NCBI GenBank assembly: GCA_018303445.1
Contig: JAGVYE010000004.1
Location: 1 to 45,759 of the forward strand
DNA: 45,759 nt
Reading direction: 5' to 3'
From: Candidatus Woesearchaeota archaeon
GTDB lineage: Archaea; Nanobdellota; Nanobdellia; Woesearchaeales; GW2011-AR9
Shown: positions 14,789-37,365 of the stretch, piece by piece
Numbering within the stretch: position 1 is the first letter of the stretch
How the letters are laid out: the number at the start of each line of letters is the position of its first letter
Notes under the pieces: model-generated
Seen by the model: only the letters and a program-made list of their open reading frames with translations
The model's database searches: none
What the model was told of the DNA's origin: nothing
Made by a program: the position numbers and the translations under genes

Positions 14789-14956
14789 TTTTAATGATTC
14801 AAAATTAAGATTTTGTGATGATCTTTAATTAAATTTTTTAAGAAAGAATTGGGATTAAAAGTTAGGATTGTTTCGGGAATGAAAAATCGAGATAAGATAA
14901 TTGATATAGAATAATTAATTACAGTTTTCAAGTTTTGTGTTAAAAAACATAGAAAC

Positions 14957-14987: not shown

Positions 14988-15266
14988 ATGCAAACACAAA
15001 CCGTAGAAAATCCCTTTGTACGTTCACCTACTTTGGATACGGTATTAATGGTAGAAAAAACTATAGAAGAAAATAGTGGAGAATACAACAGAACTGAATT
15101 GTGGAAAAAGCTTCCTCGGCAGGTAATGTGGCAAACTTTCTTAGTTATTTTAGATTATTTAGAAAGTATTAACAAGATTGCTTTTGATAGAGACAGTAAA
15201 ATCGCTTATATTTGGAATCCAAAACTTGCTCAACTGCTTAGAAAGAGAAAAGAGATTGTTGTTTGA
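14988..15266 (+). CDS. Putative antitoxin of RelE-like system
   Basis: 92 residues (MQTQTVENPFVRSPTLDTVLMVEKTIEE) with a winged-helix look: helix ELWKKLPRQVMWQTFLVILDYLESINKI and a beta-wing DRDSKIAYIWN. Small winged-helix proteins of this sort precede archaeal RelE-type toxins. It overlaps the toxin by four bases (TTGA), so the two are co-translated. A palindrome sits on its TATA box. The role is inferred from context and predicted fold; no exact family is claimed. Confidence 0.7.
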   Translation: MQTQTVENPFVRSPTLDTVLMVEKTIEENSGEYNRTELWKKLPRQVMWQTFLVILDYLESINKIAFDRDSKIAYIWNPKLAQLLRKRKEIVV

Positions 15267-15589
15267 TCAAACCATCCAAGGTTGTATTTATTTCTGACGA
15301 TCTAGAAAAAAACTTTAATTCTCTGAAAGAGGATGATCCTATTAAAAAAGCGATGGTTAGAGCTATTCAAGATTTGAAAGAAAATGCTTTTTCCGGTATT
15401 CAGATTCCAAAAAGGCTCTTTCCTAAAGAGTATGTTCAAAAGTATTCCATTAACAACTTATGGAAATATGATTTGCCACGCGGTTGGAGACTTTTGTATA
15501 CTGTTGCCCCAAATAATGAAGTAGAATTAATATCAGCTATTTTGGAATGGTTTGATCATAAAAATTACGAAAGAAGATTCAGGTATTAA
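15263..15589 (+). CDS. RelE/ParE-superfamily toxin
   Basis: 108 residues starting at TTG, overlapping the upstream antitoxin stop. The RelE-like fold shows in the order of elements: KKAMVRAIQDLKENAFSGIQIPKRLFPKEYVQKYSINNLWKYDLPRGWRLLYTV, then EVELISAILEWFDHKNYERRF. The basic YDLPRGWRLLY strand and final DHKNYERRF helix are typical of archaeal mRNA-interferase-like RelE proteins. It would cleave mRNA on the ribosome or inhibit growth when released from the antitoxin. Confidence 0.8.
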   Translation: MIKPSKVVFISDDLEKNFNSLKEDDPIKKAMVRAIQDLKENAFSGIQIPKRLFPKEYVQKYSINNLWKYDLPRGWRLLYTVAPNNEVELISAILEWFDHKNYERRFRY

Positions 15590-15821
15590 TTAAAATTGGA
15601 AAGTTATTTTTCTTGTTTAAGACTTCTTCAATTCTATCAACGCATTTAGTCACATCTTTATTTATATCACTTTCCCAGAATCTCATTAATATCCAACTAC
15701 CATTGTCATATTTATTAATGTATGAATTTTTTGGTTTATCTCTAGAAACAGTTCTTTTTTGTTGTGGTTTTAAATTATTGGGATCAAAAATTACAGAGAA
15801 AAATTTATTCAATTTTATCAT
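15579..15821 (-). pseudogene. C-terminal remnant of Vsr/DUF559-like endonuclease
   Basis: The minus-strand reading contains NSYINKYDNGSWILMRFWESDINKDVTKCVDRIEEVL. This closely fits the C-terminal part of very-short-patch-repair/DUF559-type nucleases (the ..vlRfWe.di......c...I motif). The N-terminal half with the metal-binding Asp is missing, and the first 15 or so residues of the ORF are probably antisense of the neighbouring remnant. It is read convergently with the toxin, overlapping it by 11 nt. Confidence 0.55.
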
Positions 15822-16424: not shown

Positions 16425-17513
16425 TCATAAAGATTTTGTGATGATCTTTAATTCCGTCTCAAAGAAGATTTTGCGGCAAGTACAGTAATTCCCGAGATAA
16501 CAAAGTGCTAGTCTTGATGCCTTAAATCTGATCGGAAAAGGGATGTTTGGGGTCATGGGGCCAAGTCCGAGCGTGATATGTGGATAGAAATTTCTAAAAC
16601 TAAATTTTTCTCTGTAATTATTGATCCAAAATAATGTTCTCTCTTCTGGAGTTGGGGGTGTAAAGAGCATCTCCAGTGTGGCTTCGTTTGAAGTAAAAAA
16701 CTCAAGTTTCTTCATAATTTTTTCGTGGAGTTGTTGTAGTTCTTCCGTTTTTTTGATAGCGAAATTGGAATTATCTTCTTTATTTCTTATTTCATAAATT
16801 TCTAGGTTCAGAATGGCACCTGGTCGTGAAATAGCTCCGATGATTTTTCTAACTTTAGGGATATCTTTTTCATCTAAAGTTCCCATGCATAAAGATATAT
16901 GTGGTAAACATTTTTCTTTGTCTAACTCGATCTTTCTAAAGCCAGTTATAGTTTTATTCAGTTTAATACATAAATCCATAATCTCTTTGGGAGGAAGAAG
17001 TACAACATCAATAGCAATTTTTGACATCTTGTAGATACCTCTTAAAGGTGTTGATAAATCCGGAACTAAAATGGTTTGGATTCTCTTTTTTATTTCGTCA
17101 GGAAAAAACCATTTTCCTCCGCTTACTTCTTCATTAAAAACTAGTTTTCCATCATGCTTAGCAATAAATAAAGTGTCGTAACTTCGCAACACTCTTTCTT
17201 CCCATGGTTCTTCATCGTAGTAGCTTATTTCTTGGTTGAATTCAATATTTTTAATGCCAATTTATTCTTCTAATTCTCTTTTTGCCGCCTTTGTATAATC
17301 TTCACCAGGGTCAACATGACCGGTGGCGGAAGAGTCCCAGCGTCCAGGATAAATACGAACTTTTTGGCTTCGTTTTTGGAGAAAAAGTTGCCCTTTTTTG
17401 TTAAAAACAAAAACGCGAATAATTCTTCGTATCATTCCTTGTTCTAAAGCAATCTTAAACTCTTCTTCTCTCACAAAGTTCCCTTTCTTGCCGACAATAA
17501 CGACGCGGCTCAT
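16425..17513 (-). pseudogene. Nudix hydrolase fused to 2H phosphoesterase, with in-frame stop
   Basis: The ORF-track entries 17262-17513 and 16425-17192 are one reading frame of 363 codons separated by one TAA. Residues 1-170 are an IPP-isomerase-like Nudix domain (LFLQKRSQKVRIYPGRWDSSATGHVDPGEDYTKAAKRELEE-stop-IGIKN); the stop replaces the second Glu of the REUXEE box and is one base from GAA. Residues about 180-363 form a LigT-like 2H domain with LPHISLCMG and YPHITLGLG. The start overlaps flpA by 4 nt. It could be a recent pseudogene, a readthrough gene or a sequence error; the downstream half is intact, with a possible internal ATG/TTG start. Confidence 0.75.
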
Positions 17514-18184
17514 TTTTTCTTAATGATAATCATACAATGGTCTTTTTCGTAGGGATCGAGAGTTTTATAATCAATAACAGTGAAGATCTTTTCCAGTTTC
17601 TGGCGAATTTCTAAAAAAATGTCCTTTGATCTTCTCTTGATGTCAATGCTTCTGGCCTTAACAGCGAGTAAACCATACCCTCCTGGCTTTAAAAAAAGAT
17701 GGCAGTTTCGCGTGAAAATTTCTTCCTGATTTCTCTGAGCAACATCTTGGTAGACAACATCGACCTGACAAATTCTTTGCAGATACTCTTCGGGGTGATT
17801 TGCATCAGCCAAAAGAGGAACAATGTTTTTTCTTTCTTCTGCGAGAAAAACCAAATCTCTCATGACTCTGGGGGCGGGATCAATGCCAAAGATTAGTCCT
17901 TCTTTCCCAACCATATCGGAAATAAAAGAAATTGTATAGCCATGAGAAGCTCCGAGATACAGAATAACATCTTTAGCACGAATACCGGCATTAGTGCAGC
18001 CTTTCATGACCATGGCAGCTAATTTGCTGCGTCGTGGGTTAAATTCACGGAATTCAACTCCTTTCTCATTTACAATTTCTTCTTGGAAAGGCGCTTTTCC
18101 AGGAAGGACGCTTTTCGTGAAAATTTTTCTTCCACGGTCGTCTTGGTAAATTTCAAAAATTTTGTGCGGTAGTATTTTACTCAT
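17510..18184 (-). CDS. flpA: Fibrillarin-like rRNA/tRNA 2'-O-methyltransferase
   Basis: A 224-residue archaeal fibrillarin, the catalytic subunit of C/D box sRNPs. The N-terminal beta domain is FEIYQDDRGRKIFTKS; the Rossmann methyltransferase shows VILYLGASHGYTISFISDMVG (SAM motif I), GLIFGIDPAPRVMRDL, PLLADANHPEEY, VDVVYQDVAQRNQ (catalytic Asp) and LLAVKARSID (catalytic Lys). It overlaps CYTH by 8 nt and the Nudix gene by 4 nt. Nop5, its scaffold partner, starts the same operon. Confidence 0.95.
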   Translation of the reverse strand: MSKILPHKIFEIYQDDRGRKIFTKSVLPGKAPFQEEIVNEKGVEFREFNPRRSKLAAMVMKGCTNAGIRAKDVILYLGASHGYTISFISDMVGKEGLIFGIDPAPRVMRDLVFLAEERKNIVPLLADANHPEEYLQRICQVDVVYQDVAQRNQEEIFTRNCHLFLKPGGYGLLAVKARSIDIKRRSKDIFLEIRQKLEKIFTVIDYKTLDPYEKDHCMIIIKKK

Positions 18185-18683
18185 GTTTCTTTTTATACAA
18201 CTCCTCCACTTCTGCGCTAGTCTTATTTGTCGTTTGTTCTAGAGTATAACCTAATTTCTCGATGTAATATAAAACTTCTTTCTCGGTCGGAGCTTCTATT
18301 TCTAAGAAAGGAGGTACATTATCCAAAGAATCAATTTCAAAAGAAATTCTTTTTAATTTATATGTTTCTCGATGTTTCTTTCCTTCATAAACAATATTAA
18401 AGCCAAGTTTTTCAAAAATTTTTTGTGTGGTAGCAAAATCGTTGCTAATAATCTGCACTTCTTCTTGAACTTTAAACAGGGCCTTTTCTTTTTTTCCTTT
18501 GAAACATAGTTCACAGTTATCTCCTACTTGACGAATTCGTAACAGTTCTCCTCTTTTCTTTAAAGTAAATTCTGGGAAATCTAACTTGATAATCTTCATT
18601 TCACCAGAGAATACTTTCTTAGCTCCAAACTCTAGCAATTTCTGTCTTATTTTTTCTGGAATCTTAGTTTCAATTTCTTTCAT
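18177..18683 (-). CDS. CYTH-domain triphosphate hydrolase/cyclase family protein
   Basis: 168 residues of the CYTH (CyaB/thiamine triphosphatase) superfamily. The N-terminal EIETKI matches ExExK. LLRIRQVGDNCELCFKGKK and KVQEEVQI supply the paired basic and acidic tunnel residues; HRETYKLKRISFEIDSLDNVPPFLEIEAPTEKEV is the typical CyaB C-terminus. Members act on triphosphates (thiamine triphosphate, inorganic triphosphate, ATP to cAMP); the activity here cannot be chosen. It overlaps MazG (14 nt) and FlpA (8 nt). Confidence 0.88.
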   Translation of the reverse strand: MKEIETKIPEKIRQKLLEFGAKKVFSGEMKIIKLDFPEFTLKKRGELLRIRQVGDNCELCFKGKKEKALFKVQEEVQIISNDFATTQKIFEKLGFNIVYEGKKHRETYKLKRISFEIDSLDNVPPFLEIEAPTEKEVLYYIEKLGYTLEQTTNKTSAEVEELYKKKHE

Positions 18684-19056
18684 TTTTCTCTCGCACTTTC
18701 ACTTCCTGCCAGATTCTAATTTCTTCTTCTTTAGTTACCTTTCTCCGTTCTTGCAGGAATAGTTTTCTTCGTTTAAATTTTTCATGAATCTCAGGCAATA
18801 ATTTATCCAGAGAGAGTAACTTTTGGTGTTCCGCTTTGGCAATTAGGCACAGCAAATCCCAGAGAACATCACCTACTTCTTTGCGGAATTCTTCATAATC
18901 GCTTTTTTCTAATTCCACTTTCATTTCCTGAATTTCTTTTTGCAGTTCTTCAATTCTTTCTGTAAAAGTTGTTTCTCTTGCCCAAGGCGATAGTTCATCA
19001 TCAAGTCTGATAAAGTTATATAATTCTTCAAATTCGTCTTTCATGGATCTCTTCAT
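18670..19056 (-). CDS. MazG-like nucleotide pyrophosphohydrolase
   Basis: A 128-residue all-alpha NTP-PPase of MazG/dUTPase-like type. The metal motif EXXE-12-28-EXXD is seen as RIEELQKEIQEMKVELE followed by RKEVGDVLWDLLCLIAKAE. Such enzymes hydrolyse aberrant NTPs to NMP and pyrophosphate. It is embedded between nop5 (4-nt overlap) and the CYTH gene (14-nt overlap), so it belongs to one polycistron. The C-terminus is Lys/Arg-rich. Confidence 0.85.
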   Translation of the reverse strand: MKRSMKDEFEELYNFIRLDDELSPWARETTFTERIEELQKEIQEMKVELEKSDYEEFRKEVGDVLWDLLCLIAKAEHQKLLSLDKLLPEIHEKFKRRKLFLQERRKVTKEEEIRIWQEVKVREKNERN

Positions 19057-19982
19057 CGAAATCTCTCCTCGAGTTCTTTTTTATAATTTGGAGCTTTAAA
19101 TTCTCCTTTAAAATAATCTAAGCGTACACATAAAGATAGTTTGTCTGCTAAGGAGCGAGCAGCTTTTCCTCTCTCTTGTTTTTTTGCTTTTTGCACGAGA
19201 GAATGTTGGAATAAGATTCCATATTTAGGGCTCCTAGAACCTGTTTTAATGTGGCGGAAAAGAGCTTTCTCAGCCCCTAAAAGCTGGATCGTAGAAGCGG
19301 GCAGGACAGCAAGATGTTTTAACCCTTTTCCGAGTTCCAAAAGCTTGGCTCCAATGGTTACTCCGGCAAGCTCTAAAAGATTTGGACAGTATCGTTTCAT
19401 TACGGTGGTAAGATATTCTTCATGTCGTGTGCGAAGAAGATAGAGCTGCTGAAGTTGGATGGCCAAAAGCTTAATCTCTTCTAGATCTTCTTTTCCTAAG
19501 TCGCTCCCCATGGTTTCCTTAATTGAGAATTGTTGCATTAACTCTTTCTTATTTTTTTTTAAAATAAACTCAATCAGTTTTTCATGAGAAGCGATTTTTT
19601 CTCCTATTTCTGGAAAGTAGAGACCATACCATTCACGGAATCGTTTTGATAGAAGATTAGTTATTTTATCCAGTTCACCCATATTAGCGATGGCTTGGGT
19701 GATGAGATTATCGTCAGATACAGAGGCCTTCAAAGCTTTTTTTGTTATCCTTAGATTACGCTGATGGAATAATTCATAGTATTTTTTTTCTTTTACAAGA
19801 GAAAGGAAGAGATGATATTTTTCTTGAGGAAGAGGGATACTTTGTTTGTATTTTTTTTGGAGAAGATCTTCACTTTTTTTTTCTGTGAACTCTTTGAGGT
19901 CTGTAAACAAAATGGAATCCATCATTTTTCCTTGTTCATCGAGGACAAAACTGCCAAGAATGTTTGTAAAAAGGAATTTCAT
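19053..19982 (-). CDS. nop5: C/D box sRNP scaffold protein Nop5
   Basis: About 309 residues of archaeal Nop5/Nop56/58: an N-terminal domain that docks fibrillarin, a coiled coil, and a Nop domain with YCPNLLELAGVTIGAKLLELGKGLKHLAVLPASTIQLLGAEKALFRHIKTGSRSPKYGILFQHSLVQ, binding L7Ae and the guide RNA. I place the start at ATG 19982, because a TATA-like TTTAAATAG (20005-20014) predicts transcription starting there; the ORF track uses a GTG two codons earlier. It heads the operon nop5-mazG-CYTH-flpA-Nudix/2H. Confidence 0.95.
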   Translation of the reverse strand: MKFLFTNILGSFVLDEQGKMMDSILFTDLKEFTEKKSEDLLQKKYKQSIPLPQEKYHLFLSLVKEKKYYELFHQRNLRITKKALKASVSDDNLITQAIANMGELDKITNLLSKRFREWYGLYFPEIGEKIASHEKLIEFILKKNKKELMQQFSIKETMGSDLGKEDLEEIKLLAIQLQQLYLLRTRHEEYLTTVMKRYCPNLLELAGVTIGAKLLELGKGLKHLAVLPASTIQLLGAEKALFRHIKTGSRSPKYGILFQHSLVQKAKKQERGKAARSLADKLSLCVRLDYFKGEFKAPNYKKELEERFR

Positions 19983-20004
19983 GCTCACGTTCCAGAAGGG
20001 CGGT

Positions 20005-36072: not shown

Positions 36073-37365
36073 ATGAAGATAAGTTGTGTTATTCCCGCAT
36101 TTAATGAAGAGTCAACGATTATCAACGTAATCAGAAATGTAAAGAAGGTTAAGGTAATAAATGAAATTATAGTTGTTGATGACGGTTCTACCGACAATAC
36201 TTATAAAAATGCGAAATCAGAAAAAGTTAAAGTAATTAAACACCTCAGAAATGAGGGAAAAGGAGCGGCTATTAAAACAGGCGTATCACACTCATCAGGG
36301 GATATTATTTTGTTTCTTGATGCGGATTTATATTCAATAACACCAAAGAAAATTGCATCAATTCTTCAACCGCTTGAAAATGATGAAGCTGATTTTGTTA
36401 AAACTTCCTTTACAAGAGCAAGAGGTAGAGTTACAGAACTTGTAGTAAAACCATTGTTTAAAGTAATTTTTCCATTTATAACTTTTAATCAACCACTAAG
36501 CGGACAATTTGCGATTAAAAGAGAATTGCTAAAAGAATTAAAAATTAATGATGGCTGGGCGGTTGATATACAAATACTGCTTCAATTAGTAAAAAAAAGC
36601 GTGCGCATATCAGAAGTAGATCTAGGACTATTGAAACATAAAAAGCAACCTATAGAAAATTTAGCTATCATGTCTGAAGAAGTTATTAAATCCATATTAT
36701 CTGAATTGGGGATTATATCTAATAAACACAAACTGGTGATATTTGACTTTGATAAAACACTTATAAGAGAAAGCAGCATTGAAATAGTTGCAAAAGAATT
36801 TTTGTTTAAGAGAGAACTTCAAGAGTTGAGAGCAAATTATGAAAGCGGAAAAATCAAAAATTACAATATAACATTAGAACTTGCTAACCTCATTAAAGGC
36901 AGAACAGAAAAGGATTTCGAGAAAGTTTTTGAGAATATAAATTTAAGGAGGACGGCAAAAAGAGTGGTGGAGAGACTTAAAAAGAGGCAATATACAGTTA
37001 GTATTATTTCTGTTGCTTTTTCTCCAATAGTATGTTATTTTGCTGATAAACTAGGAATAGATAGAAGAAATATTACCTGTCCTGTTCTCGTAACTGATAA
37101 GAATGGAATATACACCGGAGAAGTTATTGCCAAAACAAAATATCATTCAAAATGCTGTGATACGATTATATGTAAAGCAGATGCAGCTAAAGAACTTATG
37201 AAGAAATTAAATGTTAAGCCGGAAGAATGCATAGCTGTTGGAGATGGAAAGTCGGATGAATGTTTATTTCGTGCGTGTGGTTTTTCTTTAGCCTATAAAC
37301 CACTTATTTCTATAGGAGATATTAAGATTTTAAATTTGGCAGAAGTGCTGATATATGCAGAATAA
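36073..37365 (+). CDS. GT2 glycosyltransferase fused to HAD-IB phosphatase
   Basis: 430 residues in two domains. Residues 1-215 are a family 2 glycosyltransferase (CVIPAFNEESTIINVIRNV, EIIVVDDGSTDNT, RNEGKGAAIKTGV, FLDADL with DAD at 83-85, QPLSGQFAIKRELL). Residues 218-430 are a SerB-like HAD-IB phosphatase (LVIFDFDKTLI with Asp225, SVAFSPIV, GDGKSDECLF). The GT part resembles glucosyl-3-phosphoglycerate synthase more than dolichol-phosphate sugar synthases, because no C-terminal TM is present. A synthase-phosphatase pair in one chain would make a glycosyl-glycerate in two steps; this is inference. Codon use is AT-rich. Confidence 0.8.
   Translation: MKISCVIPAFNEESTIINVIRNVKKVKVINEIIVVDDGSTDNTYKNAKSEKVKVIKHLRNEGKGAAIKTGVSHSSGDIILFLDADLYSITPKKIASILQPLENDEADFVKTSFTRARGRVTELVVKPLFKVIFPFITFNQPLSGQFAIKRELLKELKINDGWAVDIQILLQLVKKSVRISEVDLGLLKHKKQPIENLAIMSEEVIKSILSELGIISNKHKLVIFDFDKTLIRESSIEIVAKEFLFKRELQELRANYESGKIKNYNITLELANLIKGRTEKDFEKVFENINLRRTAKRVVERLKKRQYTVSIISVAFSPIVCYFADKLGIDRRNITCPVLVTDKNGIYTGEVIAKTKYHSKCCDTIICKADAAKELMKKLNVKPEECIAVGDGKSDECLFRACGFSLAYKPLISIGDIKILNLAEVLIYAE

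Follow-up and report, generated by a model that had tools for sequence, protein, structure and literature searches.

Nonsense and frameshift pseudogenes in prokaryotic operons typically combine a disabled conserved gene with intact neighbours and with intact homologues elsewhere. The locus described here is of the same kind, and is unusual only in that its stop codon falls on a catalytic glutamate and its frame shift mimics a gene fusion. The affected gene is like the Nudix proteins of the YfcD, DR0079 and type 1 IPP isomerase type in the residues covered by the model PF00293 (29–143) and in a C-terminal tail of the stand-alone type, but differs from them in a Nudix box that is interrupted by TAA and in a tail that lies out of frame. 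Its neighbour shares with the 2H phosphoesterases, e.g., LigT/2'-5' RNA ligase, YjcG and CPDase, two H-x-S/T motifs, the fold and the profile matches, whereas the archaeal subfamily to which it belongs (loci L036–L060) ends in a conserved GNYCTCRK-type motif. A further point of comparison is the programmed -1 frameshift of an archaeal alpha-L-fucosidase (PMC8211752), with which the locus has in common an A-rich slippery heptamer and a continuation in the -1 frame; here, however, a UAA stands about 59 codons upstream and a stimulatory structure was not found.

In our view, the locus is very probably a young Nudix pseudogene with two lesions beside an intact 2H gene, and the apparent fusion of the two genes a by-product of the frame shift.

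Two lesions in the Nudix gene of a nop5-fibrillarin operon

The window, i.e., the whole stretch of 45,759 nucleotides that was analysed, is the entire contig 48 of a metagenome-type assembly (1.22 Mb, 54 contigs, 95% complete), and the rRNA of this genome matches archaeal models; taken together with a relative in a Diapherotrites MAG (see below), this points to an archaeon, probably of the DPANN group. It contains an operon of the order nop5-mazG-CYTH-fibrillarin-Nudix-2H, all on the minus strand, in which the gene ends overlap or abut. The start ATG of the Nudix gene overlaps the fibrillarin stop (ATGA), and the five genes around the broken Nudix gene, for Nop5, MazG, CYTH, fibrillarin and 2H, are all intact. 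The features are as follows, given in order of transcription:

19053–19988, minus strand: Nop5/Nop56 C/D-box RNP protein, first gene of the operon (PF01798, E = 4.6e-51)
18670–19056, minus strand: MazG-like nucleotide pyrophosphohydrolase (PF03819, E = 4.6e-10)
18177–18683, minus strand: CYTH-domain protein (PF01928, E = 3.4e-15)
17510–18184, minus strand: fibrillarin-like rRNA/tRNA 2'-O-methyltransferase (PF01269, E = 8.6e-72)
17008–17513, minus strand: decayed Nudix hydrolase gene, YfcD/DR0079/IPP-isomerase-like, in its original extent (PF00293, E = 1.7e-18; analysis of the tail frame)
17262–17264, minus strand: lesion 1, in-frame TAA, codon 84, at a catalytic Glu of the Nudix box
17085–17091, minus strand: lesion 2, the run A_AAA_AAG, where the Nudix frame is lost by a net one-base shift
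17008–17085, minus strand: C-terminal tail of the Nudix protein as encoded by the shifted frame, ENPNHFSSGFINTFKRYLQDVKNCY, ending at a TGA of its own (17010–17008)
17037–17041, minus strand: Shine-Dalgarno-like GAGGT, 9 nt ahead of the 2H ATG
16425–17027, minus strand: intact gene for a predicted 2H phosphoesterase of 200 aa, in which the two histidine motifs (PHIS and PHIT) are present

The frame 17513–16425 on the minus strand comprises 363 codons including the terminal stop and has one internal stop, the TAA at codon 84, where GHVDPGEDYTKAAKRELEE is followed by the stop and then by IGI. Within the Nudix box, the TAA takes the place of the second of the two EE glutamates, and every other position of the consensus Gx5Ex7REUxEExGU fits. 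In the alignment of 51 distinct relatives, the respective column is occupied by Glu in 50 and by Gln in the remaining one. A stop at the second glutamate of RELEE[E]IGI, as reported in the preliminary description, is hence confirmed, with its position corrected by two bases from 17260–17262 to 17264–17262. That description was also right in regarding the TAA as the sole internal stop of the frame, but not as its sole break, as a frame shift at 17091–17085 constitutes a second lesion.

The Nudix domain PF00293 bridges the stop (residues 29–143, E = 1.7e-18), and none of the other approximately 150 close Nudix matches listed from 353 genomes of the order contains an internal stop. Judged by this match across the codon and by the lack of stops in the other listed Nudix matches, the TAA is beyond chance. 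In the same genome, the other listed Nudix matches, 13 glycosyltransferase-2 matches and 7 GTP_EFTU matches are likewise without internal stops. To judge by its domain match and box, the broken gene is a Nudix gene by descent and not an intact member of the family. The nearest PDB chains to the Nudix part are DR0079 (1q27) and YfcD (2fkb); the YfcD and IPP isomerase models match it below threshold, and all curated equivalog cut-offs are missed.

At the A-run, Nudix similarity stops in frame 0 and picks up again in frame +2. The in-frame residues past codon 143 (RIQTILVPDLSTPLRGIYK) are unlike a Nudix tail in the alignment of the relatives' C-termini, and a profile built from the tails of the 51 relatives scores 13.7 bits in frame +2, compared to -1.2 in frame 0 and -0.5 in frame 1. 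Not one of 40,000 translated pieces drawn at random from the window reached 13.7 bits, and 5,000 shuffles of the tail residues likewise all stayed below the score of the real tail; true tails have a leave-one-out median of 13.5 bits (51 relatives). An earlier profile based on 21 relatives had shown a weak frame preference (6.3 vs. 3.2 bits), which was resolved by including 51 relatives and cutting after codon 143; the size of the indel is defined modulo three bases only. Consequently, no single frame holds a complete Nudix domain, given the stop at codon 84 and the frame shift past codon 143. As the shifted frame carries its C-terminus, the Nudix gene would originally have stood on its own, with about 167 codons and a 20-base overlap with the 2H gene, the TGA at 17010–17008 lying 20 nt inside the latter.

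Up to the frame shift, the 143 codons contain no stop other than the TAA, and the Nudix box is well preserved. The absence of any further stop means that the two lesions must have arisen recently. The part past the stop scores lower than the corresponding part in 43 of the 51 relatives, and the part before it higher than in 43 of 51. The lower conservation past the stop loosely fits what relaxed constraint would be expected to produce. Set against its intact homologues, the gene bears two disabling lesions, a nonsense codon and a frame shift.

Probable gene decay and the possibility of consensus errors

According to the proposed course of events, two neighbouring, slightly overlapping genes would close a nop5-mazG-CYTH-fibrillarin operon. 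In the first of them, a stand-alone Nudix gene of about 167 codons, the nonsense codon at the catalytic Glu would truncate the protein midway through the Nudix helix, and the C-terminus would be destroyed by a net one-base shift in the A-run near the end of the gene. The same shift would set the remaining Nudix frame in register with the 2H gene, so that the two look fused, while 2H would use an ATG and a Shine-Dalgarno site of its own for translation. The truncated Nudix product is presumably inactive and the 2H gene probably expressed. The suggestion that the gene died by one change is supported as far as the decay of the Nudix gene is concerned, but two lesions are present and not a single one.

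The main rival explanation, which we regard as unlikely, is a sequencing or assembly error, i.e., an intact Nudix gene in the organism and one or both lesions as errors of the consensus. The metagenome-type assembly in 54 contigs was available as consensus alone, and an A-run is a usual place for indel errors; on the same contig, however, 51 ORFs of together about 38 kb stay uninterrupted despite 147 homopolymer runs of at least 6, and the other family matches in the genome are free of stops. Conservation is good in the remainder of the Nudix gene, as would be expected of an intact gene, but two lesions of different type fall within one gene of 0.5 kb. Two such unlike lesions amid intact neighbours argue for decay in the organism rather than for a generally poor consensus, and we infer that the lesions are real and not present in the assembly only.

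Recoding and the genetic code

Recoding is a very improbable alternative, by which a functional Nudix protein would result from readthrough of the UAA followed by backward slippage of the ribosome by one base at A_AAA_AAG. In frame 0, A_AAA_AAG is a heptamer of the type allowing -1 slippage, and slippage at this site would lead exactly into the frame of the Nudix C-terminus, but the same heptamer occurs in frame at five places in other ORFs of the window. A precedent is provided by the -1 frameshift known for an archaeal alpha-fucosidase gene (PMC8211752, PMC8037382), yet a single gene would need two events here, and archaeal readthrough is established solely for selenocysteine and pyrrolysine at UGA or UAG (PMC8211752, PMC8037382), whereas the codon in question is UAA. 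Moreover, the RNA downstream of either site was predicted to fold no better than shuffled sequences (z = -1.06 after the stop and z = -0.34 after the A-run).

A change of the genetic code was rejected, as TAA terminates 26 of the 51 ORFs of the window and the listed family matches in the genome are without stops. A suppressor tRNA was not found among the 11 tRNAs recovered from the genome: the apparent UAA-reading tRNA, called as “tRNA-Stop (tta)” by ARAGORN (L066:1501-1589 (-), G000:C50:14914-15002), turned out to be a tRNA-Lys(UUU) whose intron lies behind position 37. In its sequence and in the Rfam alignment, CUUUUA, a 15-nt intron and A stand, in this order, between the anticodon stem CUUGA and UCAAG. 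Introns that confuse anticodon calls seem to be present in several further tRNAs of the genome.

Translation past the stop, the other option raised in the preliminary description, consequently finds no support, with TAA being a normal stop, no suppressor among the recovered tRNAs and a frame shift downstream. Readthrough alone would also be insufficient, because the ribosome would still meet the frame shift. That a DPANN-like archaeon makes a Nudix enzyme by UAA readthrough and -1 slippage, with a minor product continuing into 2H, is more far-fetched still and hardly credible.

The 2H gene and its apparent fusion to Nudix

Coming back to the reading as a Nudix pseudogene beside an intact neighbour, the gene downstream carries the two H-x-[ST] motifs of the 2H superfamily, PHIS at residues 42–45 and PHIT at 149–152. 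H43 and H150 are invariant in all 24 aligned 2H sequences, and PF13563 is matched by each of these 24 members at relaxed E-values, while the 2H sequence of the window on its own, in a single-sequence search, misses the Pfam cut-off. In the PDB, a 2H profile retrieves PH0099 together with its relatives. The AlphaFold model (pLDDT 94) has the LigT/CPDase fold, with Foldseek returning YjcG (E = 4.0e-08) as well as CPDase, LigT and PH0099 at a probability of 1.00. Based on motifs and model, the gene is an intact one and encodes a predicted LigT-like 2H phosphoesterase. The GAGGT ahead of its ATG is complementary to the 16S 3' end of its own genome (ATCACCTCC).

The relatives available for comparison come from outside the genus, among them one from the same family (genome G007). 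In the 353 genomes of the order, the 2H part found a match in 25 genomes, that of the window included. In the loci read, the 2H relatives are all stand-alone genes starting at a Met that matches position 17027, and several of them are preceded by a stop within a few codons. In G007, the order is nop-CYTH-fibrillarin-2H without a Nudix gene in between, and the 2H ATG lies four bases past the fibrillarin stop. The Nudix relatives are separate genes as well, mostly of about 160–230 aa, and a search of the named genome collection with the whole frame returned one Nudix relative only, from a Diapherotrites MAG.

A true Nudix-2H fusion enzyme that acquired its nonsense codon later, as initially proposed, deserves almost no weight: the frame is indeed open between codon 85 and the end of 2H, but no fused relative of 2H was seen among the 353 genomes of the order and no fused Nudix among the Nudix ORFs examined from order and phylum, the would-be linker residues are without the Nudix similarity that the shifted frame has, and the 2H gene is equipped with a start and a Shine-Dalgarno site of its own. 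The relatives thus do not back a join of both domains in one frame. Nudix and 2H look joined because the one-base shift at the A-run puts their frames in register, and the 363 codons, previously taken for one gene, span the Nudix gene and a separate 2H gene. Two genes with their own starts in relatives, named beforehand as the finding that would speak against a fusion, are exactly what is observed.

The case illustrates that a frame shift can fake a domain fusion, which might then be recorded as a new enzyme, and that a stop can seem significant by falling on a catalytic residue though it is one of two random lesions. Beyond annotation, its importance is small; it very probably represents ordinary gene decay. 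Two related archaea have a LigT-like 2H gene next to fibrillarin in their nop5-fibrillarin operon, namely the genome studied here, with the broken Nudix gene in between, and G007.

Further observations concern the surroundings of these genes. In the genomes G048 (L014) and G012 (L026/L086), nop and fibrillarin are separated by a stand-alone Nudix gene, and Nudix genes hence occupy more than one position in the nop-fibrillarin operon. Genome G137 has two tandem 2H genes (L037:1501-2713). In the window, a 27-nt direct repeat (14804–14830 and 16427–16453, plus strand; 96% identical) with a palindromic AAAGAT..ATCTTT core has one copy just past a GDPD gene and the other at the extreme 3' end of 2H. 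The arms of a 30-nt inverted repeat (15778–15807 and 16601–16630; 93% complementary) lie in a DUF559-like ORF and in the 2H gene. This 80-aa ORF (15579–15821, minus strand) matches DUF559 weakly (E = 0.064) and is perhaps the C-terminal remnant of an endonuclease. Downstream of the GDPD gene, a stretch of 30% GC (14988–15589, plus strand) contains two adjacent small ORFs, the second of which shows a weak, below-cut-off similarity to ParE/YoeB toxins (PF05016, E = 0.002), and the pair could possibly represent a type II toxin-antitoxin system. Finally, a single ORF at 36073–37365 (plus strand) combines a family 2 glycosyltransferase domain (residues 4–128) with a HAD-type phosphatase domain (residues 222–397).
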